A stretch of 64,000 nt of DNA from Cytophagales bacterium (GTDB lineage Bacteria > Bacteroidota > Bacteroidia > Cytophagales > Spirosomataceae), in the NCBI GenBank assembly GCA_013298125.1, contig JAAFJP010000014.1, positions 1 to 64,000 of the forward strand, read 5' to 3'. Shown here one piece after another: positions 5,762 to 48,447 of the stretch. The translations under genes were made by a program, and so were the position numbers. Each line of letters opens with the position of its first letter. The stretch's first letter is position 1. The notes beneath the pieces were generated by a model, which did not search any database, was not told where the DNA came from, and saw only the letters and a list, made by a program, of their open reading frames with translations.

Positions 5762-5789
5762 ATCTGACTATCAATAATCTAACAATCTT

Positions 5790-5893: not shown

Positions 5894-5909
5894 ACTGATT
5901 ATCTATAAG

Positions 5910-6272: not shown

Positions 6273-6284
6273 GGTATCTGATTT

Positions 6285-6388: not shown

Positions 6389-6403
6389 CTAATTATCAAT
6401 AGA

Positions 6404-6925: not shown

Positions 6926-6949
6926 AGTGAGTTATATTGTTTTGATGTT

Positions 6950-10260: not shown

Positions 10261-10403
10261 AATTTGACAAAATTCAACATTTTGTTAGAATAATCTAATA
10301 TTATTTTGCACTATTCAATTAATGAACTAAAACCGTCCATTTCGTAATGAAAAATATGCTAAATATTTCCCGTACTCCTAACATTCAAATAGGTATTTTT
10401 ATT

Positions 10404-20162: not shown

Positions 20163-20999
20163 ATGAAAACTCCACGTATTGATTCCCATCAACATTTCTG
20201 GTATTATGACCCCAATAAGCACGTTTGGATGAACGAGCAGATGGAAATATTGAAAACGGATTATCTGCCAACGGATTTAGAACCACTCCTAAAAAGTTGT
20301 GATTTAGACGGTTGCGTAGCCGTGCAAGCCAATCAAGCCGAAGTTGAGAATGACTTTTTATTACAACTTGCCGATAAAAATGATTTCATCAAAGGCATTG
20401 TGGGTTGGGTTGATTTGAGGGCTAAAAATCTTTCAGAAAGACTTGAATATTATCAGAAATTTTCTAAAATAAAAGGCTTTCGACACGTCATTCACGATGA
20501 GCCTGAATTGAATTTTATGCTTCAACCAGCTTTTATGAAAGGGGTTTCAATGTTGAAAAAATATGGTTATACTTATGACATTTTGATTTTTGCGGCACAT
20601 TTGCCCAATACCTTAAAATTTGTCAAAAATCTGCCTGACCAGCCTTTTGTCATTGACCATATCGCCAAGCCCAACATCAAAGCGGGTGAAATTGATACTT
20701 GGGAAAAGCAGTTGAAAAAAGTAGCTTCTTTTGAAAATGTCTATTGCAAAATATCGGGCATGGTAACGGAAGCTGATTGGTCTTCTTGGAAAAAGGAAGA
20801 TTTTACCAAATACTTGGATGCAGTCGTGGAAGCCTTCGGAACAAACCGATTGATGTATGGCTCAGATTGGCCCGTGTGTACGTTGGCTGCCAATTATGAA
20901 ACACAATTTAAACTCGTAAAAGACTATTTTTCAAGTTTTAGTAAAACTGAACAGGAACAGATTTTGGGTGGAAATGCTATCCAATTTTATAAAATCTAA
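20163..20999 (+). CDS. Amidohydrolase-family sugar lactonase (L-fuconolactonase-like)
   Basis: A 278-aa metal-dependent hydrolase of the COG3618 type, which includes L-fuconolactonase and L-rhamnonolactonase; these open sugar lactones to aldonic acids in the cytoplasm. The metal motif DSHQHFW has H9 and H11. A later His lies in FVIDHIAKP, and the catalytic Asp is in YGSDWPVC near the C-terminus. No signal peptide. It is first in a run with a Zn dehydrogenase, symporter and aldo/keto reductase, consistent with oxidative breakdown of a deoxysugar or related aldose. Family is firm; the substrate is inferred. Confidence 0.8.
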   Translation: MKTPRIDSHQHFWYYDPNKHVWMNEQMEILKTDYLPTDLEPLLKSCDLDGCVAVQANQAEVENDFLLQLADKNDFIKGIVGWVDLRAKNLSERLEYYQKFSKIKGFRHVIHDEPELNFMLQPAFMKGVSMLKKYGYTYDILIFAAHLPNTLKFVKNLPDQPFVIDHIAKPNIKAGEIDTWEKQLKKVASFENVYCKISGMVTEADWSSWKKEDFTKYLDAVVEAFGTNRLMYGSDWPVCTLAANYETQFKLVKDYFSSFSKTEQEQILGGNAIQFYKI

Positions 21000-21002
21000 C
21001 TA

Positions 21003-21211
21003 AGCCCATAGGGCTGAAACTTTGGTAGAATAAAAGAAAATAGTCAAATCCAAGCCCCATCGGGGCGATATTCTGGTAGAGAATAAGAATAAAACAGTCG
21101 GAAGTAAGCCCCATCGGGGCGACATCCTGGTAACAGAAAATGCCGCCCCGATGGGGCTTATGAAACGGAGAAAATGTGTCTCTATCACCAAAATATCGCC
21201 TCTATGAGGCT
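21003..21211. repeat. Palindromic array A (forward x3, reverse x2)
   Basis: Three forward units (GCCC...GGGC core then a tail ending in TTTTGGTAG or a variant) and two reverse units (tail CCAAAAT... then core). The centre is short (GGTAACAGAAAATGC). The array fills the gap between the lactonase stop and the start of the dehydrogenase. The last core is the variant GCCTCTATGAGGC. Confidence 0.9.
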
Positions 21212-21225
21212 AAAAAAATGAATTA

Positions 21226-22242
21226 ATGAAAGCAATTATTTTAGAAGAGCCAGGTAAATTTCAACAAATAAAAATAGATAAACCACAAAGTCCATTAGCC
21301 CACGAGGTAATGTTGAAAATCAGGCAGTTAGGCGTTTGTGGAACAGACTTACACGCCTACAATGGCAAGCAACCATTTTTTTCTTATCCAAGAATTTTAG
21401 GGCATGAAATTGCTGCCGAAGTCGTAGAAATTGGGGTTGATGTAAAGCACTTGAAAATTGGTGATTTATGTTCGGTAAATCCTGGTATAAATAGAATTGA
21501 AGACCAAGCGGTGCGTCGTGGAAAAACAAATTGTGGCACTTCGCTAAGTTTAATCGGAGTTCATGAAGACGGAGCGATGCAAGAATATATCAACCATCCC
21601 GCTGATTTAGTTTTTCCTGCAAATGACCTTTCGCTCGACCAAATTGCCTTAATCGAACCTTTGGCGATTGGTAGCCATGCCGTTGAACGTGCTGATATTA
21701 AGCCAGAAGATATTGTTTTAATTATCGGGGCTGGTCCAATTGGTATCGGTACAGTGGCAATGGCATTGCTCAAAGCTGCCAAAGTGATGGTCTTGGATAT
21801 GAACCAAAATCGTTTGGATTTTATCAGTCAAAAATTCCCATCGGTTGAAACGATACAGTTAAACGATAACGTGGAAGAAACCCTAAAAGAGCGATTGAAT
21901 GGAGATTTGCCCACGGTGATTTTGGATGCAACGGGTAATAAAGCCTCGATGGAAAAATGTATCGACTACATCGCCCCAAGTGGAACGATTGTCTATATCG
22001 GACTTTTTATTGGCGATGTTACTTTCCATGACCCACTTTTTCATCGAAAAGAAGTAACCTTAAAATCTTCACGAAATGCCGTAGCCACTGATTTTGAGAA
22101 ATTGATTCGTCTTTTAAAAGCGGGATTAGTAAGCATTGACGGCTTGGTTACGCATAGATTGCCTTTTGAAACATTGCACGAAAATTTTACAAAATTATAT
22201 TTACCCGAAGAAAGAGTGATTAAAGCGGTAATCGAATTCTAA
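21226..22242 (+). CDS. Zinc-type alcohol/polyol dehydrogenase (MDR)
   Basis: A 338-aa medium-chain dehydrogenase, NAD(P)-dependent, probably oxidising a sugar or sugar acid hydroxyl. The catalytic zinc ligands are C38 in GVCGTDLH, H60/E61 in LGHE, and a downstream Glu in LIEPLAIG. The Rossmann motif is IIGAGPIGIG. The usual four-cysteine structural zinc loop is nearly gone: the segment GINRIEDQAVRRGKTNC keeps a single Cys. It is followed after 5 bases by the symporter gene. Function within the deoxysugar pathway is inferred from neighbours. Confidence 0.85.
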   Translation: MKAIILEEPGKFQQIKIDKPQSPLAHEVMLKIRQLGVCGTDLHAYNGKQPFFSYPRILGHEIAAEVVEIGVDVKHLKIGDLCSVNPGINRIEDQAVRRGKTNCGTSLSLIGVHEDGAMQEYINHPADLVFPANDLSLDQIALIEPLAIGSHAVERADIKPEDIVLIIGAGPIGIGTVAMALLKAAKVMVLDMNQNRLDFISQKFPSVETIQLNDNVEETLKERLNGDLPTVILDATGNKASMEKCIDYIAPSGTIVYIGLFIGDVTFHDPLFHRKEVTLKSSRNAVATDFEKLIRLLKAGLVSIDGLVTHRLPFETLHENFTKLYLPEERVIKAVIEF

Positions 22243-22247
22243 AAATT

Positions 22248-23954
22248 ATGCAACAAATAGCCACCATTGATATTATTATTATTGCCGTTTATCTAATCGG
22301 CATTACACTTTTTGGCATCTGGGTTGGGTACAAAAAAAGTACCTCATCAGAACAATACTTTCTTGCCAATAAATCGTTAGGTTGGTTCACAGTTGGAGCT
22401 GCCGTTTTTACCTCCAATATTTCCACGATTCACTTGGTAGGTTTGGCGGCTGGTGGAGCGAAAGACGGTATGGTCATTGGTAATTTTGAATGGATGGCGT
22501 GTTTTACGTTGATCCTTTTGGCATTACTTTTTGCTCCTTTTTATGTCAATTCAAAAGTGGCAACGCTTCCCGAATTTATGGAACGCCGATACAGTCCCGA
22601 TGCCCGAACTTTCTTAGCAATTATCGGATTGTTCGGAGCTTTGTTTGTGCATATCGGTATCAGTTTGTTTGCGGCTGCCAAAGTTTTTGAAAGTTTCATG
22701 GGTATTCCCATGATTTATACGATTGTCGTATTGTCCTTATTTACAGTGATTTACACTGCATTGGGTGGTTTGAAAGCCGTAGTTATGACCGAAAATGTGC
22801 AGGTCGTTTTATTGCTTGGTGGAGCTATTTTATTGACCGTTCTGGGGTTGAAAGCCTTGCCAAGTGTTGGTATAAATACCTTTGCAGATTTCAAAGCCGC
22901 TGCCGCCCCAGGACAATTAGAAATGTTACAACCTGTCATTAACAAAGAAGGAAATATCAATCCGTTTTCGTGGCTAACTATTATTTTGGGCTATCCTATT
23001 TTGGGAATTTGGTATTGGTGTGCCGACCAAACGCACGTACAAAGAGTATTAGGGGCAAAAACCTTGAAAGATGCTCAAAATGGAGCATTATTCGCAGGAT
23101 TTTTGAAAATAACGCCCGTATTTTTGATGGTTTTGCCTGGGGTAATTGGTTATATTTTATGGCAAAAAGGAGCAATTCAACTGCCAAATGTAGCAGGAAC
23201 AAGCAATCCAGATTATAATGCAATGTTGCCCACGATGATAAATCACCTGATTCCAGTTGGCTTGAAAGGATTATTAGCGGCAGGAATGGCAGCGGCTTTG
23301 ATGAGTTGTATGGCGGCAGCATTGAATAGCTGTGCTACCTTGATTTCTTTGGATATTGTGAAAAGAATAAATCCTCAAACTTCTGATAAAAAAATGGTCA
23401 GTATTGGTCGAATTTCTACGGGAGTGATTATGGTTTTAGCGATTTTGTGGAGTACACAAGGCGACCAATTTGGGACAATTTTTGAAGCCATCAACAAAAT
23501 CCCGATGACCTTTGCCCCAGCCGTTACTACCGTTTTTGTGATGGGAGTTTTGTGGAAAAGAGGTACAAAAGAAGCGGCTATGACCACCTTGTATTTAGGT
23601 TCATTGATTGGCGTAGCGTATTTTTTAATTGATATGCCCATGATTGGAAAAATGCTCATAGACGCTCCTGCCGATGATTTTGCGGGAATTGTGAGTGATA
23701 CCAAACAAGGTCTGGGCATTCCCTTTATGATGGTAGGACCCATTTTGACGGTGGTTTGTGTCTTGATTTACGTAGTAAGAAGTCACCAAACGCCAGCCAT
23801 GCCTGCCGAAGAAGTAGCCAAAGTGTGTTGGGATCACCCTCTTTCATTTTTACAAGGCAAAATCACAGGGGCATCAGACCCACGTATGGTTACGCTGTAT
23901 TTGATTGGAACAGTTACGGTTTTATATATCATGATTCAAGTTTTAGCGAAATAA
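22248..23954 (+). CDS. Sodium:solute symporter (SSS family)
   Basis: A 568-aa inner-membrane transporter with about 14 hydrophobic segments, the typical length for SSS proteins related to sodium/sugar symporters. It begins IATIDIIIIAVYLIGITLFG and carries EQYFLANKSLGW, characteristic of the family, and the conserved ALGGLKAVVMTE segment after helix 4. It starts 5 bases after the dehydrogenase and its TAA overlaps the ATG of the next gene (TAATG), so it is translationally coupled in one operon. Probably imports the monomer oxidised by the neighbours. Confidence 0.9.
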   Translation: MQQIATIDIIIIAVYLIGITLFGIWVGYKKSTSSEQYFLANKSLGWFTVGAAVFTSNISTIHLVGLAAGGAKDGMVIGNFEWMACFTLILLALLFAPFYVNSKVATLPEFMERRYSPDARTFLAIIGLFGALFVHIGISLFAAAKVFESFMGIPMIYTIVVLSLFTVIYTALGGLKAVVMTENVQVVLLLGGAILLTVLGLKALPSVGINTFADFKAAAAPGQLEMLQPVINKEGNINPFSWLTIILGYPILGIWYWCADQTHVQRVLGAKTLKDAQNGALFAGFLKITPVFLMVLPGVIGYILWQKGAIQLPNVAGTSNPDYNAMLPTMINHLIPVGLKGLLAAGMAAALMSCMAAALNSCATLISLDIVKRINPQTSDKKMVSIGRISTGVIMVLAILWSTQGDQFGTIFEAINKIPMTFAPAVTTVFVMGVLWKRGTKEAAMTTLYLGSLIGVAYFLIDMPMIGKMLIDAPADDFAGIVSDTKQGLGIPFMMVGPILTVVCVLIYVVRSHQTPAMPAEEVAKVCWDHPLSFLQGKITGASDPRMVTLYLIGTVTVLYIMIQVLAK

Positions 23955-24892
23955 TGCAATACAATAAATTAGGAAATACAAATTTAAACGTCTCTCGCAT
24001 CAGTTTTGGAGCATCTTCTTTGAGTAGCGTTTTTCATGCGGTCGAGGAACACGATGCCATTGCGGCAGTTCATGCGGCATTGGAGGCGGGTATCAATTAT
24101 ATAGATGTTGCCCCTGCGTATGGGGGTACAAAATCAGAAATAGTGTTGGGAAAAGCCCTCAAAGGCATTGACCGAAGTCGTTATGTGCTTTCCACAAAAA
24201 TTGGAAAATATACCGACCCCAACCAATACGGCAAGGATGAATTGGATTATTCGGAAAAACGAACACGCCAATCATTGAAAGAAAGTGCTGAACGAATTGG
24301 CACTGATTATTTCGACATTATCCACATTCATGACATCGAATATCAAAGCCGAATTCATGCCGAATGGGCTTTGACAGAGGGTTTAGAAAGTTTGCATAAA
24401 CTCAAACAAGAAGGACAAATTGGAGCAGTAAGTTTTGGGATTTACCCGATGGATTTGTGGCATCGCATCTTTAATGATTACGAAATTGATGCTGCTTTGA
24501 TTCATAATCATTATTGTTTGAATGATACTCGGTTGCTCGAATTATTGCCAAAAGCCCAAGAAAAAGGCATCGGAATTATCAATGCTTCACCTTTTGCCAG
24601 TGGATTATTGACCGACCGAGGACCCGCAGATTGGCATCCAGCTAACTCAGAAGAAAGAACCATTTTTGCCAACGCAGCAAAGATTTGTCAAGATTTTGGT
24701 ATTTCGATTTCACAATTAGCGATGCAGTTTTCAAGCCAAAATCCTGAGATTCCAACCACAATGTTTAGTTCTTCCAATGCAAAATCGGTTTTAAGAAATA
24801 TCGAATGGAGTGAAGAATCTATCAATTTAGAATTGCTTGAAATGGTGCAAAAGGCTTTGAAATCTCTGATGAATAAACAGTGGGATTATTGA
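23954..24892 (+). CDS. Aldo/keto reductase, L-fucose/L-galactose dehydrogenase-like
   Basis: A 312-aa aldo/keto reductase. The ATG at 23954 overlaps the symporter stop (TAATG); longer upstream reading into the symporter is not credible. The TIM-barrel signature is DVAPAYGGTKSEIVLGKAL with the catalytic Asp/Tyr pair, followed by the barrel Lys in VLSTKIG and the His in DIIHIHDIEY. The pattern LGNTNLNVSRISFGASSL is like L-galactose or L-fucose dehydrogenases that make lactones from aldoses. With the lactonase at 20163 this would supply the first two steps of an oxidative route. The substrate is inferred. Confidence 0.82.
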   Translation: MQYNKLGNTNLNVSRISFGASSLSSVFHAVEEHDAIAAVHAALEAGINYIDVAPAYGGTKSEIVLGKALKGIDRSRYVLSTKIGKYTDPNQYGKDELDYSEKRTRQSLKESAERIGTDYFDIIHIHDIEYQSRIHAEWALTEGLESLHKLKQEGQIGAVSFGIYPMDLWHRIFNDYEIDAALIHNHYCLNDTRLLELLPKAQEKGIGIINASPFASGLLTDRGPADWHPANSEERTIFANAAKICQDFGISISQLAMQFSSQNPEIPTTMFSSSNAKSVLRNIEWSEESINLELLEMVQKALKSLMNKQWDY

Positions 24893-24910
24893 CAGATTAA
24901 CTTATTGTGG

Positions 24911-25060
24911 AAGCCCCATCGGGGCGATATTTTGGTAAAAAACGAGTATATCCAAATTCAAAAAGCCCTGTAAGGGCGACAGTTTGGATTTAATGCCGCC
25001 CCAATGGGGCTTAAAATTGTTCAATCTATTTTACTACCAGAATGCCGCCTCTCTGAGGCT
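24911..25060. repeat. Palindromic array B (forward x2, reverse x2)
   Basis: Forward cores GCCCCATCGGGGC and GCCCTGTAAGGGC, then reverse cores GCCCCAATGGGGC and GCCTCTCTGAGGC. The centre is GACAGTTTGGATTTAATGCC. It occupies most of the gap between the aldo/keto reductase and the LamG protein. Confidence 0.9.
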
Positions 25061-25078
25061 AAAAACGATGAAACAAAA

Positions 25079-27199
25079 ATGAAAAAATTACTAACCCTTA
25101 TCTGCCTTTTGCCCATTGCTCACATTTTCGGGCAATCAAAACCTATGGCTCAATGGAATTTTGATTCTGTCGAGAAAAATGAGGTCATAAAACCGCTGGA
25201 ACGTCGCCTAATCCCTTCGCCTGAAATAGACCGTTCCTTTTTTGTTACGGAAGAAAATTCTGCTGCCAAAAGTAAGATACTTGGCTCTTTCCATAAATCA
25301 GTGGCGGGCGTTGTGGGCAATTCTTTGCAATTAGACGGTAACACCAGCTATATCGAAACGGAATTTAAAACCCCACTTTCAGGAGATTTTAGCGTTGGGG
25401 CTTGGTTGGCTTTGGGAGCATATCCAACACACTGGTGTCCTGTTGCCGACCAAAATATCAACGCTAAAAAAGGCTTTTTCTTGGGCGTTGATGCCTACGG
25501 ACACGCTGGCGTGAAGGCGTACATAGGAGGACAATTGGTGGAAGTACAATCCGTAAAGAAAATCCCATTACGCCAATGGACGCTGATTCAGGGGGTATTT
25601 TCTCCTACCGAAGGATTGACGCTTTTTGTCAATGGCAAATCAGCGGGCAATGCTAAAACATCGGGCGATTTTGAATCAGCTCCCTCAGAGAAATTATTAA
25701 TTGGCAAAAGCACCATCAAACAAAAACCCGAAGGCACCGTTCGCCAAAACGGAACACAACCCGTTTATATGTTCTTGGATGGCTTGATTGATGAGTTAAA
25801 AATCTATGATAATTCCCTGACAACCAACGAAATAACTGATTATTACAACAAAACAAAACCTCAAACTGCTCCGCTTTTGGCAACTCGTTTTTTGCCATTA
25901 TCAGGAGCAAAATCGGGTAAGTTTGGAGCGATTTATACCACTTTGAAATTCTATGAGGCTTGGGACAAACCTTGGCCCGTGTCTAACCAAGCTGACGTTG
26001 TCATCAACTTTGATGACAACGCTCACAAATTCATTTTTTGGCGTGGTACAAGTTACATCCCACATTGGATAACGGAGAATGGCATTTGGTACAACAATGA
26101 ATTTTTAGAAACATGGGACGTAAACGGTTGCCACGAACCCATGTCCGACAAACGTTGTCAGTATTCCAATGTCAGAATTTTGGAGAGTAACGATGCCCGT
26201 GCGGTAGTTCATTGGCGTTATGCTTTAATTGACAACCTAAATATTTTCGCTCGTGTGGACTCACTTTCAGGTTTTGGTGAATGGGCAGATGAAGTTTTTA
26301 CGATTTATCCCGACGGCGTGGGTGTTCGCAAAGCTACTTTGCACAGTTCGCAACCACAATCTCAACACGAATGGCAAGAAGGCATGGTAGTAATGGGTCC
26401 AGGACAACGTCCAGAACAGGTGTTAGAAGCGGGCGGATTGACCTTAGCTAACATGAAAGGCGAAACGCATACGTATGACTGGGGCAAAGGTTTACCCAAA
26501 GAAAAAGATAAATATGGTTACGTACAATTGCCCGAAAAAGCCAATATTCACTTGATTAATACCAAATCTCAACTCAAACCATTCGTGGCTATTTCGCCCA
26601 AAGCCAATGCGATTTTCAATGTCTATAATGGCGAATTGCGAAGTGATGTGAGTATGTATCCGTGGTGGAACCATTGGCCCGCCGCCCAAAAACCTTCTGA
26701 TGGTCGTTATGCCATGACTGACGATAACGCTTCTCATTCATCATTGACCAATATCAATTGGGACGCTTATGAAATCACAGAAGACACTCATACGAAAATT
26801 ATGCTTCACGGTCTGACGAATAAAAAAGCGGAAGATTTACGGAATTTGACCAACTCATGGGCAAGCCCTGCCAAATTGAATTTAGGAAATAATCCAGCTT
26901 TCTCAGGCGGAGAGTATGACCCAACCGAAAGAGCCTACCAAATCAAGGCAAATAATCAAGCTAAGTCGTTGAATTTCAGTCTTGAAGCCAATGCTAATTC
27001 TCCAATTGAGAATGTTGCCTTTGTCGTGAAAAATTGGGGAAATCGTGAAATTTCGCTGAAAATGGATGGTGTAAATGTAGTGCGTGGTAAAGCATTTCGA
27101 TACGGATTTAGAGATACCGAAAACGGAACGGATTTAGTGGTTTATGTAGAGAAAAAGAGTGAGAAATTAGTTAAGATTTCAATTTTGAGTAGCCAATAA
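25079..27199 (+). CDS. Secreted LamG-domain protein, possible polysaccharide lyase/hydrolase
   Basis: About 706 aa. The start at 25079 gives the signal peptide MKKLLTLICLLPIAHIFGQS; an in-frame ATG at 25004 lies in the upstream repeat. A concanavalin-like LamG domain spans about residues 85-260 (VVGNSLQLDGNTSYIE ... FLDGLIDELKIYDNSL). The C-terminal 430 residues form a large beta-rich region I cannot assign with certainty (HKFIFWRGTSYIPHW, WWNHWPAAQ). LamG-linked proteins of this size in glycan loci include lyases, so enzymatic action on a polysaccharide is plausible. It lies between repeat arrays. Confidence 0.7.
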   Translation: MKKLLTLICLLPIAHIFGQSKPMAQWNFDSVEKNEVIKPLERRLIPSPEIDRSFFVTEENSAAKSKILGSFHKSVAGVVGNSLQLDGNTSYIETEFKTPLSGDFSVGAWLALGAYPTHWCPVADQNINAKKGFFLGVDAYGHAGVKAYIGGQLVEVQSVKKIPLRQWTLIQGVFSPTEGLTLFVNGKSAGNAKTSGDFESAPSEKLLIGKSTIKQKPEGTVRQNGTQPVYMFLDGLIDELKIYDNSLTTNEITDYYNKTKPQTAPLLATRFLPLSGAKSGKFGAIYTTLKFYEAWDKPWPVSNQADVVINFDDNAHKFIFWRGTSYIPHWITENGIWYNNEFLETWDVNGCHEPMSDKRCQYSNVRILESNDARAVVHWRYALIDNLNIFARVDSLSGFGEWADEVFTIYPDGVGVRKATLHSSQPQSQHEWQEGMVVMGPGQRPEQVLEAGGLTLANMKGETHTYDWGKGLPKEKDKYGYVQLPEKANIHLINTKSQLKPFVAISPKANAIFNVYNGELRSDVSMYPWWNHWPAAQKPSDGRYAMTDDNASHSSLTNINWDAYEITEDTHTKIMLHGLTNKKAEDLRNLTNSWASPAKLNLGNNPAFSGGEYDPTERAYQIKANNQAKSLNFSLEANANSPIENVAFVVKNWGNREISLKMDGVNVVRGKAFRYGFRDTENGTDLVVYVEKKSEKLVKISILSSQ

Positions 27200-27200
27200 A

Positions 27201-27655
27201 ACTGTCGCCCCGATGGGGCTTTTCGGTGTGAGATTTTCTCATAATATTTCTACCAAACTGTTGCCCCGATGGGGCTTTTCGGTGTGAGATTTTCTCATAA
27301 TATTTCTACCGAGCGTTGGTCGCCAAAATATCGCTTCGATGGGGCTTTTAAATTGCATCTTCGTAAAATCATAACAGCCCCATCGGGGCGACACTTTGGT
27401 AGAAAAAACAAAGAAATCAAAGTTCCCAAAGCCCCATCGGGGCGACATTTTGGTTGAATAAAACGAATAAAGTCCATTCCAAAAAGCCCCATCGGGGCGA
27501 CATTTTGGTAGAATAAAACGAATAAAGTCCATTCCAAAAAGCCCCATCGGGGCGACATTTTGGTAGAATAAAACGAATAAAGTCCATTCCAAAAAGCCCC
27601 ATCGGTCGGGTCGCCGAAACGGGCAACATTTTGGCAATAAACGTTCGGTAGAAAA
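27201..27655. repeat. Palindromic array C, left flank of the Y1 transposase
   Basis: Three reverse units (27201-27345) are followed by four forward units with a period of about 63 bp and near-identical spacers (AATAAAACGAATAAAGTCCA). A last unit near 27595-27652 is interrupted by extra bases. The forward units lead directly to the transposase start. The reverse units at the left edge are an exception to the usual layout. Confidence 0.9.
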
Positions 27656-27676
27656 AACATCATAACAATAATCATT

Positions 27677-28141
27677 ATGGCAAATACATATTCCCAAATT
27701 ACAATCCATGCAGTTTTTGCGGTGAAAGGCAGAGAAAATATCATTACCAAAGATTGGAGAGATAATCTGCATGAATATATTTCAGGTATCATAACCAACA
27801 AAGGGTCTAAATCACTTGCCGTGGGTGGATGGAAAGACCACGTTCATATTTTATTTGGTTTACCCGTAACTATCTCGATATCAGACTTTATGAGTGCTGT
27901 GAAAGCCAGTAGTAGTGGCTGGATTAATGAACAAAAATTTGTTAAGGGTAAATTTGAATGGCAAGCGGGCTATGGAGCATTTTCATTCGCCAGAAGCCAA
28001 AGGGATATTGTGATAAAATACATCATGAATCAAGAAGAACATCATAAAACAAGGACATTTAAAGAAGAGTATTTGAAAATGCTCAATGATTTTGAAATTG
28101 AATATGATGAAAAATATGTGTTTGAATTTTATGAAGAATGA
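27677..28141 (+). CDS. IS200-like Y1 (HUH) transposase at array centre
   Basis: A 154-aa single-domain Y1 transposase of the IS200/TnpA type. The HUH motif is HVH at residues 55-57 (WKDHVHILFGL). The catalytic tyrosine is Y115 in KYIMNQEEHH, with Q119 giving the Y-x-x-x-Q pattern. The C-terminus FEIEYDEKYVFE is typical. It would cut and join single-stranded DNA at hairpins. It is bounded by forward palindromic units on the left and reverse units on the right, so these are likely its substrates. No accessory tnpB is present. It looks intact and is not a recent relative of the RAYT at 6404. Confidence 0.92.
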   Translation: MANTYSQITIHAVFAVKGRENIITKDWRDNLHEYISGIITNKGSKSLAVGGWKDHVHILFGLPVTISISDFMSAVKASSSGWINEQKFVKGKFEWQAGYGAFSFARSQRDIVIKYIMNQEEHHKTRTFKEEYLKMLNDFEIEYDEKYVFEFYEE

Positions 28142-28149
28142 TGGCATTT

Positions 28150-28384
28150 TAACCGAAATTTCGCCCCTATGGGGCTTTTCGGGCTACAATATTTCATTTT
28201 TGCTACCAAAATTTCGCCCCTATGGGGCTTTTGAGCTGTAATGTTTCATTTTTACTACCAAAATGTCGCCCCGATGGGGCTTTTGAGCTGTAATGTTTCA
28301 TTTTTACTACCAAAATTTCGCCCCGATGGGGCTTGGTCTATGTAAATTTCTACTTTACTACTGGAATACAGCCTCGATGGGGCT
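28150..28384. repeat. Palindromic array D, right flank of the Y1 transposase
   Basis: Five reverse units (tail CTACCAAAAT..., core GCCCCTATGGGGC or GCCCCGATGGGGC) begin 9 bases after the transposase stop and run to the start of the GH31 gene. Spacers TTTTGAGCTGTAATGTTTCA are near-identical between units. Confidence 0.9.
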
Positions 28385-28398
28385 TTAAAAAATATCAA

Positions 28399-30030
28399 AT
28401 GAAAAAGATAACTATTTTCCTACTTTCTTTATGCCTTTCCATCAACGGATTTGCACAAAAATTTACCTCTAAAATCGCCCCGTTAGCTGGCGAAAAATGG
28501 TACGGAGCTTACACCGCCAAGGCATATTGTAATACGCCTTTGAAGGATATTACCTTTCTGCCCTACGCAGCCAACGAGAAAAAGAAAGACTTACGCATTG
28601 ATAACCGAGGCAACCAAGCCGCACCTTTATTGACCTCAAACAAAGGCAGATACGTATGGAGTAATGAGCCTTTTGTGTTTGAGTTTGTGAATGGAAATCT
28701 CATTATTTCTTCTGATTTTGAGCAAGTTCAAGTGGTGGCTACTTCTGGCAAAACCCTTCGTGATGCTTATGTGGGAGCGAAAGACAAATATTTTCCTGCT
28801 TCGGGCAAAACGCTCAATCCTTTAATGTACAAAATGCCTCAGTACAATACTTGGATAGAATTAGGCACCAATCAAAACCAAAAAGATTTATTGAAATATA
28901 CTAACGATGTACTGAAAAACGGTTTTCCATCGGGTGTTTTTATGATTGATGATGGCTGGGCAAAGCATTACGGTAACTTTGAATTTGACCCCAGCACTTT
29001 CCCAGACCCAAAAGGAATGATGGACACGATTCATGCCAAAGGTTTTAAAGTCATGTTGTGGTTGACTCCGTTTATCAGTCCCGATAGTCGTGAATTTAAG
29101 CAAGTGAGCAAATTGAAAGGCTTAGTTTTGGAGAAAAATACCAACAAACCAGCCATCATAAAATGGTGGAATGGGTATAGTGCCTGTATTGATTTTACAA
29201 AACCCGAAGCGGTAAATTGGTTGAGAACTAATCTAAAAAACCTACAAACTCGATACGGTATTGATGGCTATAAATTTGATGCAGCCGATTTTGATTTTTA
29301 CCAAGAATGGACAGAAGGCAAAGCCCCTTATCCAAATAAATCTACCAATACCACTGGACCAATCCAGACCGAATTATTCAACAAATTTGGAGCTGAGTTT
29401 GATTTTAATGAGTTCAGAGCGGGTTGGAAAAATGGTAATCAGCCCATTGCACAGCGTTTGCAAGACAAACAATATTCTTGGGAAGACCTCAAATTGCTCG
29501 TTCCCGATATGCTTTCGGCGGGTTTGATTGGACAGCCTTATACCTGCCCCGACATGATTGGGGGAGGTTTACTTTCTAATTTTGAAAACATTGATTATGC
29601 CAAATTTGACCAAGAACTCATGGTTCGCTCGGCACAAACCCAAGCCATGATGCCTATGATGCAGTTTTCAGTTGCTCCGTGGAGAGTTTTGGACAAAAAG
29701 CATTTGGACATTGTGAGAAATGCGGCATTACTTCATGCCAAAATGGGCGAATATATTTATGAATTAGCTCAAAAAACCGCCAAAGAAGGCGAACCCATCG
29801 TAAGACATTTGGAATATGCCTTCCCGAATCAAGGTTTTGAATCATGCGACGACCAATTTATGTTGGGTGAAAAGTATTTAGTAACACCCATGATTGAAAA
29901 AGGAACAGAACGACAAGTCAGACTCCCAAAAGGTACTTGGATTGATGAATTGGGTAATAAATTTGAAGGCGGAAAAACCATCAAAATTTCAGTTCCGTTG
30001 GAAAGATTGCCGTATTTTAAAGCTCCCTAA
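28399..30030 (+). CDS. Secreted GH31-family glycoside hydrolase
   Basis: About 543 aa. The start at 28399 gives signal peptide MKKITIFLLSLCLSINGFAQ; the in-frame ATG at 28333 lies in a repeat unit. The (beta/alpha)8 domain shows the GH31 pattern: VFMIDDGWAKHYG, GFKVMLWLTPFISPDS and the nucleophile D294 in GYKFDAADFDF. The C-terminal part (EKYLVTPMIEKG) matches the GH31 beta-domain. GH31 enzymes cleave alpha-linked glucose, xylose, galactose or sulfoquinovose; which is used here is not determinable. It lies between two repeat arrays in the glycan locus. Confidence 0.85.
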   Translation: MKKITIFLLSLCLSINGFAQKFTSKIAPLAGEKWYGAYTAKAYCNTPLKDITFLPYAANEKKKDLRIDNRGNQAAPLLTSNKGRYVWSNEPFVFEFVNGNLIISSDFEQVQVVATSGKTLRDAYVGAKDKYFPASGKTLNPLMYKMPQYNTWIELGTNQNQKDLLKYTNDVLKNGFPSGVFMIDDGWAKHYGNFEFDPSTFPDPKGMMDTIHAKGFKVMLWLTPFISPDSREFKQVSKLKGLVLEKNTNKPAIIKWWNGYSACIDFTKPEAVNWLRTNLKNLQTRYGIDGYKFDAADFDFYQEWTEGKAPYPNKSTNTTGPIQTELFNKFGAEFDFNEFRAGWKNGNQPIAQRLQDKQYSWEDLKLLVPDMLSAGLIGQPYTCPDMIGGGLLSNFENIDYAKFDQELMVRSAQTQAMMPMMQFSVAPWRVLDKKHLDIVRNAALLHAKMGEYIYELAQKTAKEGEPIVRHLEYAFPNQGFESCDDQFMLGEKYLVTPMIEKGTERQVRLPKGTWIDELGNKFEGGKTIKISVPLERLPYFKAP

Positions 30031-30047
30031 CCCCCATAGAGAAAAAA

Positions 30048-30127
30048 GAGCCCCATCGGGGCGATACTTTGGTAGAAAGAAGTGAAAATAATTAAGTCAA
30101 AAAGCCCCATCGGGGCGACATTATGGT
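30048..30127. repeat. Palindromic array E (forward x2 only)
   Basis: Two forward units with core GCCCCATCGGGGC. The tail of the second is altered from TTTTGGTAG to TTATGGTAATG and so supplies start codons for the next gene. No reverse units follow. Confidence 0.88.
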
Positions 30128-30128
30128 A

Positions 30129-31498
30129 ATGAAAAACATTTTTTATTTATTAATCGGGGGATTTTTTTCACTGGCGTGTAGCAAAGAATCTACGCCTACG
30201 GTTACACCTACCCCACCCGTTGTCGTTACGCCCCCAATCGTTGGTAAAACCTACTATGTAGATGCTTCAATTTCAGCATCTGGAAACGGTTTAACCGAAG
30301 CTACCGCCTTCAAAACCCTCACCGAAGCCGCTAATGCAACGGCAGCTGGCGATGTGGTTTTAGTAAAAGATGGTACATATGCAGCTTTTCAGGAAACTAC
30401 TTCTGGCAAAGATAATGGATGGATAACGTGGCGGGCGTTCCCAAATCACAAACCCTTGATTTCGTTTGATGGTTGGCAAGGCATTTATATCAAAGGTTCT
30501 TATGTGGAAATTGACGGACTTACTGTTCGTGGAAATAACGCAAAAGTAACTTTGGCAGCTGCTTTGAAACAAGGGAAAGGTTGCGAAAACACAGGAGGAA
30601 ATTATGAACCAATTTACAACGGAAACGGAATCTATGTTGATAGTAGAAAGACGGATGCCAATAATCCAACGGGTGAGAAGTATCACCACGTAACCATCAG
30701 AAACTGCACGGTTTATGAATGTGGCGGACCAGGTATTGGCACTATTCAAGCGGATTACATTGTGGTTGAAAATTGCACTATCTATAACAATTCGTGGTAT
30801 AGCCTTTTCGGAACGAGTGGCATTTCTTTATATCAGCATATCAATTCAGATGCCAGTCAGGATGTTAAAAATATCATTCATAACAACGTGATTTATGGCA
30901 ACAGAATGTTTGTGCCGTGGGTGTTTGGTAACTGTAAATTTACCGATGGCAACGGTATTATTATTGATGATTTCAAAACACGCAAAACGGCTCAACTTTC
31001 GGAAAATATGCTGGTAAGACCCTGATAGAGAATAACTTAGTGTATGACAACGGCGGTAGAGGAATCCATTGCTTTTTGTCAGATAATATCACGATTGTGA
31101 ATAATACTTGCTATCAAAATTCAGCTTCTCCTGAGATTGATGAAGGTGAAATAACGGTTTATGGCACAGGCTCAAATCGTAGTGAAAACTGTTCGGTTTA
31201 CAACAATATTTTGTTTGCCAGAACGGGCGAGAAGGTAAACACAGTTTCAAACGTAACCAATTATATTCATCGTAACAACATTTATTTCAACAGTGAAATT
31301 GGTTCTCAACTTTCAACCATTGGCAAGTCAGCCGACCCAATGTTTGTCAATCCAACTACGGGAGATTTTAAGTTAAAAACGGGCAGTCCAGCCATTGATT
31401 ATGGGGTAAGTTCCTTGTATTTTCCTAAAAAAGATTTATTCGGAAATGCCCGACCCAAAGGAAAAGAAGTTGATTGTGGGGCTTATGAGATTGAATGA
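30129..31498 (+). pseudogene. Beta-helix lipoprotein with single-base frameshift
   Basis: Two adjacent frames (to 31025 and from about 30971 to 31498) join into one protein of about 457 aa, homologous to the beta-helix of the giant protein. It starts as a lipoprotein (LACSKES) with a DUF1565-like YYVDASISASGNG entry, then parallel beta-helix repeats ending in DCGAYEIE. The break is at 30971-30973: the reading frame matches the paralogue up to IIIDDF and, after one extra T, continues as QNTQNGSTFGKYAGKTLIENN. A missing T in a short T run explains it. It could be a true mutation or a sequencing error. Probable polysaccharide lyase or glycan binding. Confidence 0.8.
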
Positions 31499-32079
31499 TT
31501 CATTGATTTTGCTGCCATTCCGAAGCAAACCAATACACAAGCCAGAAAAAAACAATAAGCACTTATCGGATTGATGGAAAGTTCAAGAAGATTAAAAGTA
31601 TTGGCTAAAATCGAAAATAAGGTAGCCAGAAGTAAATAAATTCCTGCTTGCTTATACCCTTTTTTCAGGGCAATAATTCCAAAAATCAAGACACACAGAA
31701 TACCGATAAGTGGCATTAAAACGAATACTTGGTTGAGATTCAAGAACATACATATTAGAGCAAATCCTAAACTCAAAGCAACAATCCAAAAGGTGGGTTT
31801 GGATGAAAAAGTTTCCTTGAAAATCAGAGAATAAATGCCTGCCACGAGCAAAATTATTCCCGTTGAAGAACCAATATTTTTGAAGAAATCGTGCCAATTA
31901 TCCATGCCCGAAACTCCTGCAAAATAAAGAGCTGAGAAAAAGGCAGTCATGGCTACCGACAAAATAAAAGTACCCCAAAGTAAAACCTGCTTCTGGGGTA
32001 TTTTTCTTATTAAAAAATAGTAGGTTAGGAAACCCGTTAGGGACAAAAAAGACTCTGAAATTAGATTAGTGATTTGCAT
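31483..32079 (-). CDS. Multi-pass membrane protein, unknown
   Basis: An integral membrane protein of about 198 aa with six or seven hydrophobic segments and no motif that I recognise. I prefer the ATG at 32079 (MQITNLISESF) because a start at 32103 would overlap the upstream gene by 11 bases, although such overlap is possible. It is the third gene of a minus-strand run after the hydroxylase and another membrane protein. Its 3' end overlaps the end of the convergent beta-helix gene by 16 bases. Confidence 0.7.
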   Translation of the reverse strand: MQITNLISESFLSLTGFLTYYFLIRKIPQKQVLLWGTFILSVAMTAFFSALYFAGVSGMDNWHDFFKNIGSSTGIILLVAGIYSLIFKETFSSKPTFWIVALSLGFALICMFLNLNQVFVLMPLIGILCVLIFGIIALKKGYKQAGIYLLLATLFSILANTFNLLELSINPISAYCFFLACVLVCFGMAAKSMNHSIS

Positions 32080-32092
32080 GATTATCAAGTAG

Positions 32093-32737
32093 CTATTTGC
32101 CATAAACTAACCCTAATCTTTTCAACGTATTCCGCTTTTTGATGAAATAAATCATAAAGGGCAGGGCAAAAAGAATGGGTAACACAAACAATAAAAGTAA
32201 TGAAAACTGCCCTTTCAAAAAGAGTTGATACGTCAAGTAAATACCTATAATATTCCAGATGCCCACCACCGTAAAAAACCAATATCCATACGAAATAGCG
32301 TGTTTTAAGGGGTTTGAACCCAATGGATGAGCTTTTGATTTCAAATAAAACAACCCCGAGCCTAATAGAAAAATATCAATAAAAATGGCGAAAATAGCGG
32401 TTCCAATACCCACTAAACCAATAAATATCAAAGGGTATTCCTGCAAAAATGGCAGAACCAAATAGGCAGAAAGGTTGATGGTTGCTGAGTAAATAAAGCC
32501 GATACTTGGCGTTACGCCTTGGATAGAATAAGATGTGGTAAAATACCAAAACTTGCAATATCCTGCCCCCGTACCCACCACCAAATACATCGTGAGGGCA
32601 GGGAAAAGAAGCATGAAAATACTCATACTGGGAGAAAACAATTTGGCAAATTCACCATATAAGCTAACAAGGGTAACGATTGGGAAAATCCACAAAAAGA
32701 TGATTTCAATAAGGGTTTTAAATTTCTTGAACGGCAT
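32093..32737 (-). CDS. Multi-pass membrane protein, unknown
   Basis: A 214-aa membrane protein with about six hydrophobic helices; I do not recognise the family. It overlaps the end of the hydroxylase gene by 20 bases and is followed closely by another membrane gene, so the three are probably one operon. A basic C-terminus (KKRNTLKRLG) suggests an inside tail. A role next to the hydroxylase in lipid metabolism or membrane composition is possible but unproven. Confidence 0.7.
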   Translation of the reverse strand: MPFKKFKTLIEIIFLWIFPIVTLVSLYGEFAKLFSPSMSIFMLLFPALTMYLVVGTGAGYCKFWYFTTSYSIQGVTPSIGFIYSATINLSAYLVLPFLQEYPLIFIGLVGIGTAIFAIFIDIFLLGSGLFYLKSKAHPLGSNPLKHAISYGYWFFTVVGIWNIIGIYLTYQLFLKGQFSLLLLFVLPILFALPFMIYFIKKRNTLKRLGLVYGK

Positions 32738-33659
32738 AATTTTGTTGTTTTAAATAATTGGCAACTGCTTCTTCGGTACGCTGATGATTTCCTGTATGAC
32801 TCCACCCAGGAGGATAAATTAAATACCCCAATTTGTCTTTCCAATTAGTGGCAGATTTCATTTGATTTCTAAGCCACTTAAAGCCCGAAAACTCTACCTC
32901 AATAGGGTTGAAGGTTTCGATATTGGTGGTTAGTCCATATACGGGTGGTTCGTTTTTTTCTTCCCGTTTGAATGTTCCGAAAATAATATCCCAAATAATT
33001 AAAACTTGACCGTAATTTTTATCCAAATATTTTACGTTTGTGGCATGATGCACGCTGTGATTACTGGGCGTAGCGAGGATATACTCTAAAAATCCCATGT
33101 TCTTGATGAGTTTGGTATGGTTGAAAATTCCCCAAATATTAGTTGCACCAATAATCACCGCAAATTGAAGAATATCAACGCCTAAAATTGGCATAAAATA
33201 GAAAAAATTAGAAGCAAATAAATCTAAGAAAGTACCTCTATTAGCAGTTGAAAAATTGAGTTCCTCCGAGCTATGATGCACCTGATGGAACGCCCACAAA
33301 AGTCCCATGCGATGCGAAAGGGCGTGTTCGGCAAAATAGAAAAAGTCGTGTAGTAAAAACACGAAAATCCAACCCAAAGCGGTGTATGGCACCTCCCAAA
33401 TTCGACAATGCGTATATAAATATGTATAAACAGCATAGTGAAAAACGCCACCCACAAAAATCCCAAAAAGCGTATTGAAAGCCGACATACTCAAACTTGT
33501 AGCGGCATCTTTGGCGTTGTACTTCATGTTTGAGAAAAAATAATAAATCCTCTCCGCAAAAATTGAAGTTAAGTAAAACGGTAAAATGAAGTGAGTAACT
33601 TCTGTGCCATTTCGTACCATCTCAACAAAATGATTCCAAGTGTTTCCGATAAATTCCAT
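32718..33659 (-). CDS. Fatty acid hydroxylase / sterol desaturase superfamily
   Basis: A 313-aa membrane-bound di-iron enzyme of the fatty acid hydroxylase superfamily. The histidine boxes are HDFFYFAEHALSHR, FHQVHHSSEELN and NHSVHHATN, the expected metal ligands. Several hydrophobic helices precede them. Members hydroxylate or desaturate lipids, carotenoids or alkylglycerols; the substrate here is unknown. It is the first gene of a minus-strand operon with two membrane proteins. Repeat array F separates it from the aldolase gene upstream in coordinate order. Confidence 0.88.
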   Translation of the reverse strand: MEFIGNTWNHFVEMVRNGTEVTHFILPFYLTSIFAERIYYFFSNMKYNAKDAATSLSMSAFNTLFGIFVGGVFHYAVYTYLYTHCRIWEVPYTALGWIFVFLLHDFFYFAEHALSHRMGLLWAFHQVHHSSEELNFSTANRGTFLDLFASNFFYFMPILGVDILQFAVIIGATNIWGIFNHTKLIKNMGFLEYILATPSNHSVHHATNVKYLDKNYGQVLIIWDIIFGTFKREEKNEPPVYGLTTNIETFNPIEVEFSGFKWLRNQMKSATNWKDKLGYLIYPPGWSHTGNHQRTEEAVANYLKQQNYAVQEI

Positions 33660-33709
33660 ATTCGTAATTGTTTTAATTTATGCTCATTCCGAGTTCAATT
33701 TTTCATTTT

Positions 33710-33876
33710 AGCCTTGTAGAGGCGATATTTTGGTAGTCGTAGTGAACAATTACATAACGAGTCTCCAAAGCCCCAGCGGGGCGATATTTTAAAGAGAATG
33801 TCGCCCCGCTAGGGCTTTGGAGATAATATTTTTACTATTTTTATTCTACTACCAAAATATCGCCTCTCTGAGGCTT
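33710..33876. repeat. Palindromic array F (forward x2, reverse x2)
   Basis: Forward cores GCCTTGTAGAGGC and GCCCCAGCGGGGC, then reverse GCCCCGCTAGGGC and GCCTCTCTGAGGC. The centre is very short (GATATTTTAAAGAGAATGTC). Lies between the hydroxylase and the class II aldolase gene. Confidence 0.9.
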
Positions 33877-33902
33877 TTGAACCAGCAAGTCAATTATTTG
33901 AA

Positions 33903-34685
33903 TTATTCCATAAAACTTAATCCAACACTCATTACATCTTGCAAAAGTGGCTGAAAGCTAAACCAACCAGCCACTGGGAAACCCACTTCAAGGTCTCTGG
34001 TTTTTATGGCTACTTCATGGCTAATGGGGTCGGTATCAATAATCATGGATTCTGCCAAAATCTGTGACTGACAACACCTTTCCATCGAAATAAACCACCA
34101 AACAGCTTCTTCAACCGAATTTCCAACGGTCAGCAAACCATGATTTTTTAAAATGGCTGCTTTATTATTTCCCAAAGCGGCAGCAATTCTATCACCTTCG
34201 GCGGTTTCCATGACTACGCCCGTGTAATCGTCATAAATGGCGTGGTCGTCATAAAAAGCACAGGCATCTTGGGTAAGAGGGTCTAATAATTTATCCATTG
34301 CAGACCAAGTTTTGCCATAAATAGAATGAGCGTGAGCAGCAGCAATCACTTCTGGATGTGCATGGTGCAATCTTGAATGAATGGCAAAAGCGGCTTGATT
34401 GAGCAGCTTGTGTTTACCCTCAACGATTTTTCCATGGTGGTCCACTCGAATCAAATCCGATACTTTGATTTGGTTAAAAGAAACCCCAAAAGGATTTACC
34501 CAAAAGGTATCTAAAAACTCAGGGTCACGGACGGTAATATGTCCTGCCACACCTTCGGAAAAACCAAATTTTCCGAATATTCTAAAAGACGCTGCTAACA
34601 TCATTTTACGATGTGCCTTTTCCTCTTCAATGCTTGTCCGAACGGGCATTAGCCCTTGTGCGTGGGCTGGATTTTTTACTTTCAT
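33903..34685 (-). CDS. Class II aldolase/adducin-family protein
   Basis: A 260-aa class II aldolase/adducin-fold protein. It has a zinc-site segment AAHAHSIYGKTW, a second His in LKNHGLLTVGN, and an acidic residue region GVAGHITVRDPE. Family members cleave sugar phosphates or act as epimerases or non-enzymatic scaffolds. It follows an aldehyde dehydrogenase gene on the same strand, separated by array G, so the pair may oxidise or condense an aldehyde. The substrate is not known. Length is normal. Confidence 0.8.
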   Translation of the reverse strand: MKVKNPAHAQGLMPVRTSIEEEKAHRKMMLAASFRIFGKFGFSEGVAGHITVRDPEFLDTFWVNPFGVSFNQIKVSDLIRVDHHGKIVEGKHKLLNQAAFAIHSRLHHAHPEVIAAAHAHSIYGKTWSAMDKLLDPLTQDACAFYDDHAIYDDYTGVVMETAEGDRIAAALGNNKAAILKNHGLLTVGNSVEEAVWWFISMERCCQSQILAESMIIDTDPISHEVAIKTRDLEVGFPVAGWFSFQPLLQDVMSVGLSFME

Positions 34686-34707
34686 ATTTTTTATAAAATT
34701 GTTGAAA

Positions 34708-34870
34708 AAGCCTCAGAGAGGCGTAATTTTGGTAGAGATTAATCATGATTCGTATATGAAAGCCCTATCGGGGCGACACTTCTTAGGTTTCCAAAATGTC
34801 GCCCCGATGGGGCTTTTTGAGATTATCCTTTCCTTATATTTTCTACCAAAATGTCGCCCCGATGGGGCTT
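34708..34870. repeat. Palindromic array G (forward x2, reverse x2)
   Basis: Forward cores GCCTCAGAGAGGC and GCCCTATCGGGGC, then two reverse GCCCCGATGGGGC cores. The centre (ACACTTCTTAGGTTTCCAAA) is short. It fills the gap between the dehydrogenase stop and the aldolase start. Confidence 0.9.
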
Positions 34871-34872
34871 GA

Positions 34873-36405
34873 CTAATTGAACAGCTTCGCCCACAAATTT
34901 TTAGGTATTGTTTTTAGGGCAAAAAGAGCTTGCTTACCTAACGAAGCATAGCCCACATTTTCAATAAAATCATCGGTTTTTGGGGAATAAGGGGGCATAA
35001 TGGTAGAGAAAATCCCCCCATTGCCTTTCACGAAATGCCCCCTCGGATTAGAAAATTCTCTGAAACCTTCTTCACCGTGATGCACGCCCATGCCGCTACC
35101 ACCCGTACCGCCAAACGCCATCGAAGGCAAAGCCGCTTGCATGGCTAAGGCATTGACCGAAACCCCACCCGACTGTGTATTTTGAGCGATTTTATCAATA
35201 AATCGTTGCTCTCGGGCATAAATATACAAGCCCAAAGGCTTTTCGTTTTGATTGATATATTGAATAACATCCTCAATATTTTTATAGGAAATGACAGGAA
35301 GAATCGGTCCGAAAATCTCTTCCTGCATCATTTTGAGGTGCATTGGGGGATTAATTACTATATAAAAAGGCATATTTCTATCGCCTTCTTTCAAATCATT
35401 TCCTGCTTGAATCACCGTTACGCCTGCCTCAATGGCTTCATCAATCAGCGATTGTAAACGATAAATATGTCGGTCGTTGATGATGCCGCAACAGTGCGCA
35501 GCTCCATTGTTTTCTGCAAAGTTGTTTTGATAATGTTTGACCAATTTTTCAACGAAAGTATCAAGTTGTTTTTCGGGAACGAAACAATAGTCGGGTGTAA
35601 CGCACATTTGCCCACGCTTCACAGCTTTTACGCCCGCAATTTCGGCAACGGCTGAATCAGTAATGGAATCTTCGTGGACGATGACGGGATTTTTACCCCC
35701 TAATTCTAAGGTGAGTGGCACTAAATTTTCGGCTGCCAATTTCATAACTTGCTTGGCAACTGTGCCGTTGCCCGTATAAACCAAATGGTCCCATTTCAAC
35801 GTTGGGAAATACTTTGCCAATTCGATACCGCCTGTAATGACCGCTACTTGATTTTCCTCGAAAGTATCGGCAATCATTTCCTTCAATAATTCACCGCAAG
35901 CTGGTACCAAATCGGAGGGTTTGATAATGACCCGATTGCCAGCCCCCAATTGGTCGAGCATAGGACCGATGGCAATATCAAAAGGAAAGTTCCAAGCCAC
36001 CATATTACCAATGACTCCTTTGGGTTGGTATTGGATATAGGCTTTTGAACTTCCATAAGTGATAGGATTAACCTCTTTGGCAATAGGTTGCATCCATTTT
36101 TTTACGTTAGCAATATTGAATTTTGCCCGTTCAAACATTCCCAAAATCTCAATCAAATCGGCTTGTTGCGTAGAGTGACCCCCAAAATCAGCGTTGAGTG
36201 CTTCCAACATTTTACTACGGTATTTACGCAACATTGGTTGCACACGCTCCATCAAAGCAATTCTTTCTTGAGCAGAAGGGATTGGATTTTGCAAAAAGGC
36301 TTGTTTTTGAACTTCAAAAACTCGGTCGAGTTCTTGAATGGCTGCTTCATCTTCCATTATATCAGAAGCAAAAGCAATTTCAGGCAGCAAATCAGTATCT
36401 TTCAT
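34873..36405 (-). CDS. Aldehyde dehydrogenase (coniferyl-aldehyde dehydrogenase-like)
   Basis: A 510-aa NAD(P)-dependent aldehyde dehydrogenase, slightly long for the family because of an N-terminal extension (DLLPEIAFASDIM...). Motifs: VAWNFPFDIAIGP, LELGGKNPVIV with the catalytic Glu, KRGQMCVTPDY with the catalytic Cys, and QEEIFGPILPVISY. The style without a long C-terminal loop resembles fatty or coniferyl aldehyde dehydrogenases. It is on the same strand as the aldolase gene; they may share a transcript through array G. Confidence 0.88.
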   Translation of the reverse strand: MKDTDLLPEIAFASDIMEDEAAIQELDRVFEVQKQAFLQNPIPSAQERIALMERVQPMLRKYRSKMLEALNADFGGHSTQQADLIEILGMFERAKFNIANVKKWMQPIAKEVNPITYGSSKAYIQYQPKGVIGNMVAWNFPFDIAIGPMLDQLGAGNRVIIKPSDLVPACGELLKEMIADTFEENQVAVITGGIELAKYFPTLKWDHLVYTGNGTVAKQVMKLAAENLVPLTLELGGKNPVIVHEDSITDSAVAEIAGVKAVKRGQMCVTPDYCFVPEKQLDTFVEKLVKHYQNNFAENNGAAHCCGIINDRHIYRLQSLIDEAIEAGVTVIQAGNDLKEGDRNMPFYIVINPPMHLKMMQEEIFGPILPVISYKNIEDVIQYINQNEKPLGLYIYAREQRFIDKIAQNTQSGGVSVNALAMQAALPSMAFGGTGGSGMGVHHGEEGFREFSNPRGHFVKGNGGIFSTIMPPYSPKTDDFIENVGYASLGKQALFALKTIPKNLWAKLFN

Positions 36406-48242: not shown

Positions 48243-48447
48243 AAAGCCCCATCGGGGCGACAGTACGGTAATAGAAAATAATGCTATTATCCAAAAGCCC
48301 CAGCGGGGCGAAACTTTGGTAAATAAGAAAAAACCTTTATTCTGAGCTTTTAATAGTGATAATTGCTCTACAAACTGTCGCCCCGATGGGGCTTTATTCA
48401 TTAATTACGAAACGTATTTACTACCAAAATGACAGCCCTCTGGGCTT
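48243..48447. repeat. Palindromic array H (forward x2, reverse x2)
   Basis: Forward cores GCCCCATCGGGGC and GCCCCAGCGGGGC, then reverse GCCCCGATGGGGC and a degenerate GCCCTCTGGGC. The centre is longer than in other arrays (about 70 bases). It lies in the divergent gap between the IclR gene and susC-like gene, upstream of the likely susC promoter. Confidence 0.88.

Follow-up and report, generated by a model that had tools for sequence, protein, structure and literature searches.

The DNA analysed here (hereafter the window) is a stretch of 64,000 nucleotides that opens a contig of 136 kb (G000:C6) in a draft genome of 5.85 Mb. It carries a Y1 transposase gene set within a palindromic array of short hairpin units, along with further arrays that lack the gene. 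This raises the question of whether the gene-bearing array is the parent of the others and, if so, how the transposase, the hairpins and the gene-less copies are related.

The gene-bearing array and its gene-less counterparts

The gene spans positions 27677–28141 of the forward strand, stop codon included, and encodes a 154-residue Y1 (HUH) transposase, as identified from Pfam, NCBIfam, sequence motifs and a predicted fold. The protein matched PF01797 of Pfam with an E-value of 3.2e-26 and the IS200 model of NCBIfam with 68.3 bits, for a cut-off of 55; the REP-transposase model of NCBIfam gave no match. The motifs DHVH (residues 54–57), WQ (95–96) and YIMNQEEHH (with Tyr115) were present, and the predicted fold (mean pLDDT 91.4) best matched the TnpA proteins of ISDra2 and IS608 (E 5.8e-9), followed by a weaker match to the REP-transposase structure 4er8 (E 2.8e-5). 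From 251 confirmed loci, the best 80, with 54–82% identity in the best segment, were taken as relatives. Among these and the window protein, DHxH was found in 81/81 sequences, DH[VI]H in 71/81, WQ in 81/81 and the strict form Y[IVL].NQ..HH in 64/81, with the remaining 17 varying. Residues D54, H55, H57, W95, Q96, Y115, Q119, H122 and H123 were invariant in an alignment of 32 sequences (the window protein and 31 of the 80 relatives), an invariance that holds for this chosen set, since the last motif varies among the remaining relatives. By its motifs, the window protein is assigned to TnpA-Y1 subclass 1.2, for which Quentin et al. (2018, PMC6006769) give the signature DH[IV]H, WQ and Y---Q--HH, a low copy number and presence in Bacteroidetes. 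The protein resembles that description in motifs, length, low copy number and Bacteroidetes presence. The gene is the single copy of its kind in the genome, the next match being 40% identical. A second Y1 gene, L149 (G000:C4:109794–110189, 40% identical), has long palindromes around ACGAGGGGTTTAAACCCCTCGT on both sides, and a similar palindrome pair was seen at L151 in a same-genus genome.

Repeat units in the window were located with the pattern AGCCCCATCGGGGCGACATTTTGGTAGAA on both strands, allowing up to 10 substitutions. This returned 63 units of ~53 nt, grouped into 10 arrays that extend from 21.0 to 62.9 kb, with a block of three reverse units (see below) counted as part of the gene-bearing array. 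Each unit comprises a GC-rich 5-bp hairpin with a loop usually of 3 nt and a tail, GACATTTTGGTAG, on one side. Orientation was named from the forward strand: units reading hairpin then GGTAG tail are termed F, and those reading tail then hairpin R. The gene-bearing array (27376–28384) consists of a left arm on the forward strand (27376–27650), with four intact F units (at 27376, 27430, 27485 and 27540) followed by a degenerate inner F unit at about 27592–27650, which was recognised by eye and is absent from the pattern-search list, and a right arm on the reverse strand (28148–28384), with five R units (at 28148, 28201, 28253, 28305 and 28356). The midpoint of the array lies at 27880 and that of the gene at 27909, so the central position that the initial annotation had given to the gene is true to about 30 nt. 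Three extra R units (27192–27346, reverse strand) lie to the left of the array. The first of them overlaps the upstream gene at its stop codon, and the block may perhaps be the right half of a gene-less copy next to the array.

The same search yielded gene-less arrays of the form FFF RR at 21002–21211 and 62721–62927, and of the form FF RR at 24912–25060, 33710–33875, 34709–34869 and 48245–48447, none of them assigned to a strand. When folded as single-stranded DNA, the array at 33710–33875 reached −53 kcal/mol (z −13.4). Repeat analysis revealed tandem amplification of the right arm in the unstranded array at 56868–57509 (three F and ten R units) and of the left arm in that at 60708–61197 (eight F and two R units), the first unit of which overlaps the upstream reading frame at its end. 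Array E (30049–30131, forward strand) is composed of two F units only. With the three-R block counted apart, F units precede R units in 9/9 arrays with both orientations, and one array has F units alone, which bears out the gene-less copies of the palindromic layout described across the window beforehand, including the two exceptions then named, array E and the three R units. The arrays sit between reading frames, several of them starting directly after a stop codon. G+C content was 0.383 at 20–63 kb and 0.388 at 1–20 kb, values compared for import of the whole array-rich region and compatible with either case. A search of 20900–63000 returned no Rfam family at the gathering score. Elsewhere in the window, positions 10347–19820 hold a reading frame of 3157 aa that contains about ten repeats, most of them spaced at some 330 nt.

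Stem covariation was computed from an alignment of 56 of the 63 units, picked by likeness to the consensus; the seven left out comprise five that repeat given rows and two (56978 and 60766) that are out of register. Among the 54 distinct units, 14 pair cells were changed on both sides, compared with 2.0 in shuffles (none of 500 as high), and such two-sided changes were present in all five stem pairs. Sliding the stem partner lowered pairing from 95.6% to at most 55.9%. Further pair types were not exceptional (7, compared with 5.5 in shuffles, 59/500 as high). These counts are to be read with the proviso that units of one tandem array are not independent. A stem was part of the selection criterion for units in relatives, and covariation was therefore taken from the window alignment only. 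The hairpin structure of the window units is under selection.

Hairpins around the gene in relatives

In the relatives, the nearest hairpins within 160 nt of the exact gene ends were arranged as F–gene–R in 42/80 loci; the other 38 had R only (14), F only (8), neither (10) or other orders (6). For control, the same frame was found around 1/293 other likely genes of these loci, defined as the longest non-overlapping frames of at least 150 aa, and at 4/7900 random placements. Unit density was 3.34 per kb within 600 nt of the gene, as against 0.112 per kb beyond 1.5 kb. Random placements and densities were computed with rounded gene ends for 22 loci, a rounding that left the count of 42/80 unchanged. 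In the hairpin pairs of 59 loci, a TTTGGTAG-like tail accompanied 69/79 outer and 10/79 inner hairpins, and consecutive units of the same orientation were spaced 47–57 nt apart in 104/128 cases. Titles of the loci concerned include Bacteroidota and Ignavibacteria.

The gene-less window arrays largely share this positional grammar, since tails were present in 17/18 outermost, 22/22 middle and 7/18 innermost units. The tally covers 58 of the 63 units in nine arrays, with the three-R block, array E and the degenerate inner F unit set aside, and it was made with an anchored score, as GGGGCTTGGT beside R units resembles a tail.

The hairpins also go with the transposase itself. Left and right stems were equal in 25/44 loci (shuffle mean 11.4, maximum 19 in 2000). 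On the transposase tree, with 67 labelled rows, the stem type changes 23 times, compared with a mean of 38.0 and a minimum of 31 in 5000 shuffles, so that, on this tree, the hairpin stem type follows the transposase clade. Both neighbouring genes are common to 16 Flavobacteriales loci (14 titled Flavobacterium, one Flavobacteriaceae and one Kaistella), and the gene therefore seems to move rarely. The Flavobacterium site was inspected in 30 genomes, those scoring best among 60 that gave a match. The gene was found in 3/30 loci, with units on both sides in all three, two of which (L107 and L131) come from genomes already among the 80 relatives. The initial annotation had held that arrays at orthologous sites lacking the transposase would speak against its reading; in Flavobacterium, the genus covered here, units were present in 0/27 loci without the gene, one of which (L121) extends for only 216 nt after the stop.

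Seventeen other genomes were searched with patterns derived from the flanks, and 13 of them gave matches, 46/56 of which were within about 1 kb of the gene according to distances taken by hand, with contigs paired by coordinates. Because the flanks of these very loci supplied the patterns, matches near the gene are expected; what informs is their scarcity elsewhere. Wide spread is thus not general.

Spread in the host genome and traces of the gene

Throughout the host genome, 48/62 unit matches lie at C6:21.0–65.5 kb, around the gene, as counted by pattern searches with 2 to 3 mismatches, which miss strongly diverged units. Eleven of the 13 copies without terminal repeats, the gene-bearing array included, fall within these 45 kb near the gene (illustrative value 4e-22), and the other two are at C3:124.9 kb and C4:1.6 kb. 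Seven copies on six contigs (C1:265.5k, C2:57.4k, C3:123.2k, C3:130.7k, C4:7.6k, C5:85.4k and C20:57.7k) are quads with AGGACTTACGCAAAA-like, DDE-like terminal inverted repeats, the one at C4:7.6k having three hairpins. These seven may perhaps have spread by a DDE-type route; terminal inverted repeats of a DDE-type miniature element were absent at all window arrays. In place of the random orientation across the genome that had been named beforehand as contrary evidence, the F-then-R order was found in all 10 copies examined outside the window.

The window protein shares 82% identity with one from a Sphingobacteriales metagenome-assembled genome and no more than 58% with same-genus proteins, a contrast suggestive of horizontal gain and subsequent local spread. 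Against so simple a course, Y1 proteins 49–53% identical to it occur in five same-genus genomes without an F–gene–R frame, in some cases with other hairpins nearby, and another, G005, had no Y1 match. In the same-genus genome G003, an FF–RR quad adjoins the gene on its upstream side rather than surrounding it. At L147, also from the genus, five hairpins in the same direction precede the gene with a period of 74 nt instead of 53. Empty sites were sought by aligning 30.2–38.3 kb to seven same-genus genomes, which matched over at most ~175 nt near one gene, besides an alignment with the units of G003. No empty site emerged for any window array, and the insertion ends of these arrays are putative.

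Some gene-less copies in relatives retain the end of the gene. Besides the full second copy at L047, where two whole copies lie 3.3 kb apart and their likeness ends at the outer hairpins, seven self-matches with E < 1e-3 were obtained in the 80 loci, all within the last 44 nt of the gene. At L055, which is the same locus position as L131, ~40 nt of the 3′ end are retained in two gene-less copies, adjoining an inner R unit; at L061, 34/34 nt are retained beside R units, and at L041, 24 nt. At L054, with two matches, a ~50-nt tandem unit downstream of the gene repeats 23 nt of the gene end, last codons included. Each of the 3′-end matches at these four loci has E < 1e-3. The remaining 3′-end match, at L076 (E 6e-4), falls within an unrelated reading frame and is probably due to chance. 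No gene remnants were found in the gene-less arrays of the window; matches in the window and in L086, L087 and L089–L093 were weak, away from arrays and judged to be chance (best E 0.002, at L091).

The initial annotation had proposed that the transposase-bearing array is the parent and that the other arrays derive from it by internal deletion. As a pattern, and by the relatives, the parent-and-derivative reading appears well supported, since layout and grammar are common to both kinds of array and recur in relatives. Internal deletion agrees with the gene 3′ ends in the gene-less copies of some relatives; for lack of a gene remnant in the window arrays, their origin by internal deletion of the window copy is presumptive.

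Candidate explanations and relation to known systems

The explanation that we favour, with a probability of about 0.72, is a single-strand DNA mobile element or a domesticated descendant of one, with the gene-less arrays as its non-autonomous versions. The element would consist of a subclass-1.2 Y1 gene between two inverted arms. In each arm, the outer hairpin would carry a TTTGGTAG-like tail, and an inner hairpin, ~51 nt inward, would usually lack one. The gene-less arrays would be both arms minus the gene, some with one arm tandemly amplified. The transposase would bind the hairpins on single-stranded DNA, and Tyr115 would cut near the conserved tail and then rejoin, thereby copying or moving the arms, mostly to nearby places. 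Weighing against this explanation are the 38/80 relatives with an incomplete frame, the five unframed same-genus Y1 genes, the window arrays free of gene remnants and of empty sites, the apparently rare movement of the gene and the confinement of units to its vicinity in other genomes. We infer the cut site and strand, dimer action, action in trans and the making of the copies by the Y1 enzyme.

This element shares features with several known systems. With IS200/IS605 elements (IS608, ISDra2), it has in common the transposase sequence, fold and catalytic residues and hairpins near both ends; the hairpin arms here, however, are inverted, doubled and symmetrical, and the genome holds one such gene copy. 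PMC6006769 lists subclass 1.2 as without REPs and generally without IS200-type terminal structures, whereas hairpin arms flank the gene on both sides in 42/80 relatives. According to Nunvar et al. (PMC2817692), proteobacterial rayt genes are flanked by inverted REPs that accumulate locally around them, in one case near a transferred gene, and rayt 3′ ends lie inside BIMEs. Such behaviour is therefore known for RAYTs, and is met here in another subclass. A Y1 gene between inverted palindromes is shared with the RAYT/REP system (REPtron; PMC2817692 and PMC3733652), as are the build-up of repeats close to the gene and the presence of its 3′ ends in arrays (PMC2817692). With REPINs (PMC3116915), the arrays share gene-less inverted palindromes foldable into one long hairpin and tandem clusters, some beside RAYT genes. 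REPINs, however, comprise two REPs and occur genome-wide, whereas there are usually four hairpins here, mostly local.

Other differences set the window element apart. The Y---NP motif of class 2 TnpA-REP (RAYT) proteins is absent from the window protein, which has YIMNQ instead. The GT[AG]G of REPs at the 5′ foot is likewise absent; in F units, GTAG occurs instead ~10 nt beyond the 3′ foot. In place of the high genome-wide copy number of REPs, there are 62 pattern matches, 48 of them in about 45 kb. Each element has four hairpins of two types and is present in tens of mostly local copies, and its arms are amplified in one direction, whereas BIMEs alternate. By the Y---NP and foot-GTAG tests on the sequence, this is not a RAYT with canonical REPs; by analogy, the system would work like RAYT/REP in another transposase subclass. 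The architecture had been put forward as unfamiliar, which the proteobacterial RAYT parallels (PMC2817692) qualify; in the open-licence PMC literature, we found no description of the four-hairpin, two-type, tandem-armed form and no REP partner for subclass 1.2. A locus of another kind lies at 5620–7341, where partial, duplicated frames of a REP-associated transposase (NF047646, below cut-off) with tandem and inverted repeats resemble a class-2 RAYT locus in decay, complete with palindromes of its own.

A doubtful extension of this comparison would place the four-hairpin element alongside IS200/IS605 and RAYT/REP as a third kind of Y1 system, with nested arrays that grow from the centre outwards. 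New copies would insert at the tail of existing units, yielding mirror-image arrays with the oldest units outermost. Core mismatches in the window average 2.94 in outermost, 0.64 in middle and 1.11 in innermost units (permutation P 0.0003), with outermost cores keeping 4.56 of 5 pairs; against outward growth, 5/18 outermost cores match the consensus exactly. Since outer and inner hairpins differ consistently in relatives, "outer" may denote a type rather than an age.

It is unlikely that the transposase moves nothing now and merely regulates itself after domestication, with the flanking hairpins as control sites and the extra window arrays as leftovers. The shared site in the 16 Flavobacteriales loci and the confinement of units mostly to the gene in other genomes agree with such a role, but the gene-less copies with 3′ ends, the two full copies at L047 and the window arrays indicate multiplication in some lineages.

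It is quite unlikely that the hairpins originated as transcription terminators or mRNA stabilisers whose number grew by slippage, and among which the transposase lies by accident or through insertion beside hairpins. Positions 20900–35000 hold 31 terminator-like sites, compared with 14.2 (sd 3.8) in shuffles, and ~20 of the 31 are units, in keeping with the location of the arrays between reading frames and, in several cases, directly after a stop codon. This origin leaves unexplained the F-then-R order and the tailed outer and tailless inner hairpins around relatives, together with the match between stem type and clade and the joint absence of gene and hairpins. Transcription termination is possible as a by-product of the units.

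It is highly improbable that the arrays are ordinary miniature elements spread by a DDE transposase rather than by the Y1 enzyme, as the outer AGGACTTACGCAAAA-like inverted repeats that speak for it at seven copies (on C1, C2, C3 twice, C4, C5 and C20) are found on no window array, 11/13 copies lacking them cluster in 45 kb near the gene, and no target-site duplication was established.

The proposed mobile element, or its domesticated descendant, bears on the family of its transposase in several respects. Subclass 1.2 appears in the 2018 classification (PMC6006769) without a DNA partner, and the hairpin arms are the likely partner. Given cognate hairpins with a clear grammar, the chemistry of the subclass becomes testable on short oligonucleotides. 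The loci titled Bacteroidota, Ignavibacteria and others suggest REP-like systems outside the class-2 RAYTs, and the clustering of units about a gene that was probably transferred provides an example of how repeats of this kind begin to spread.
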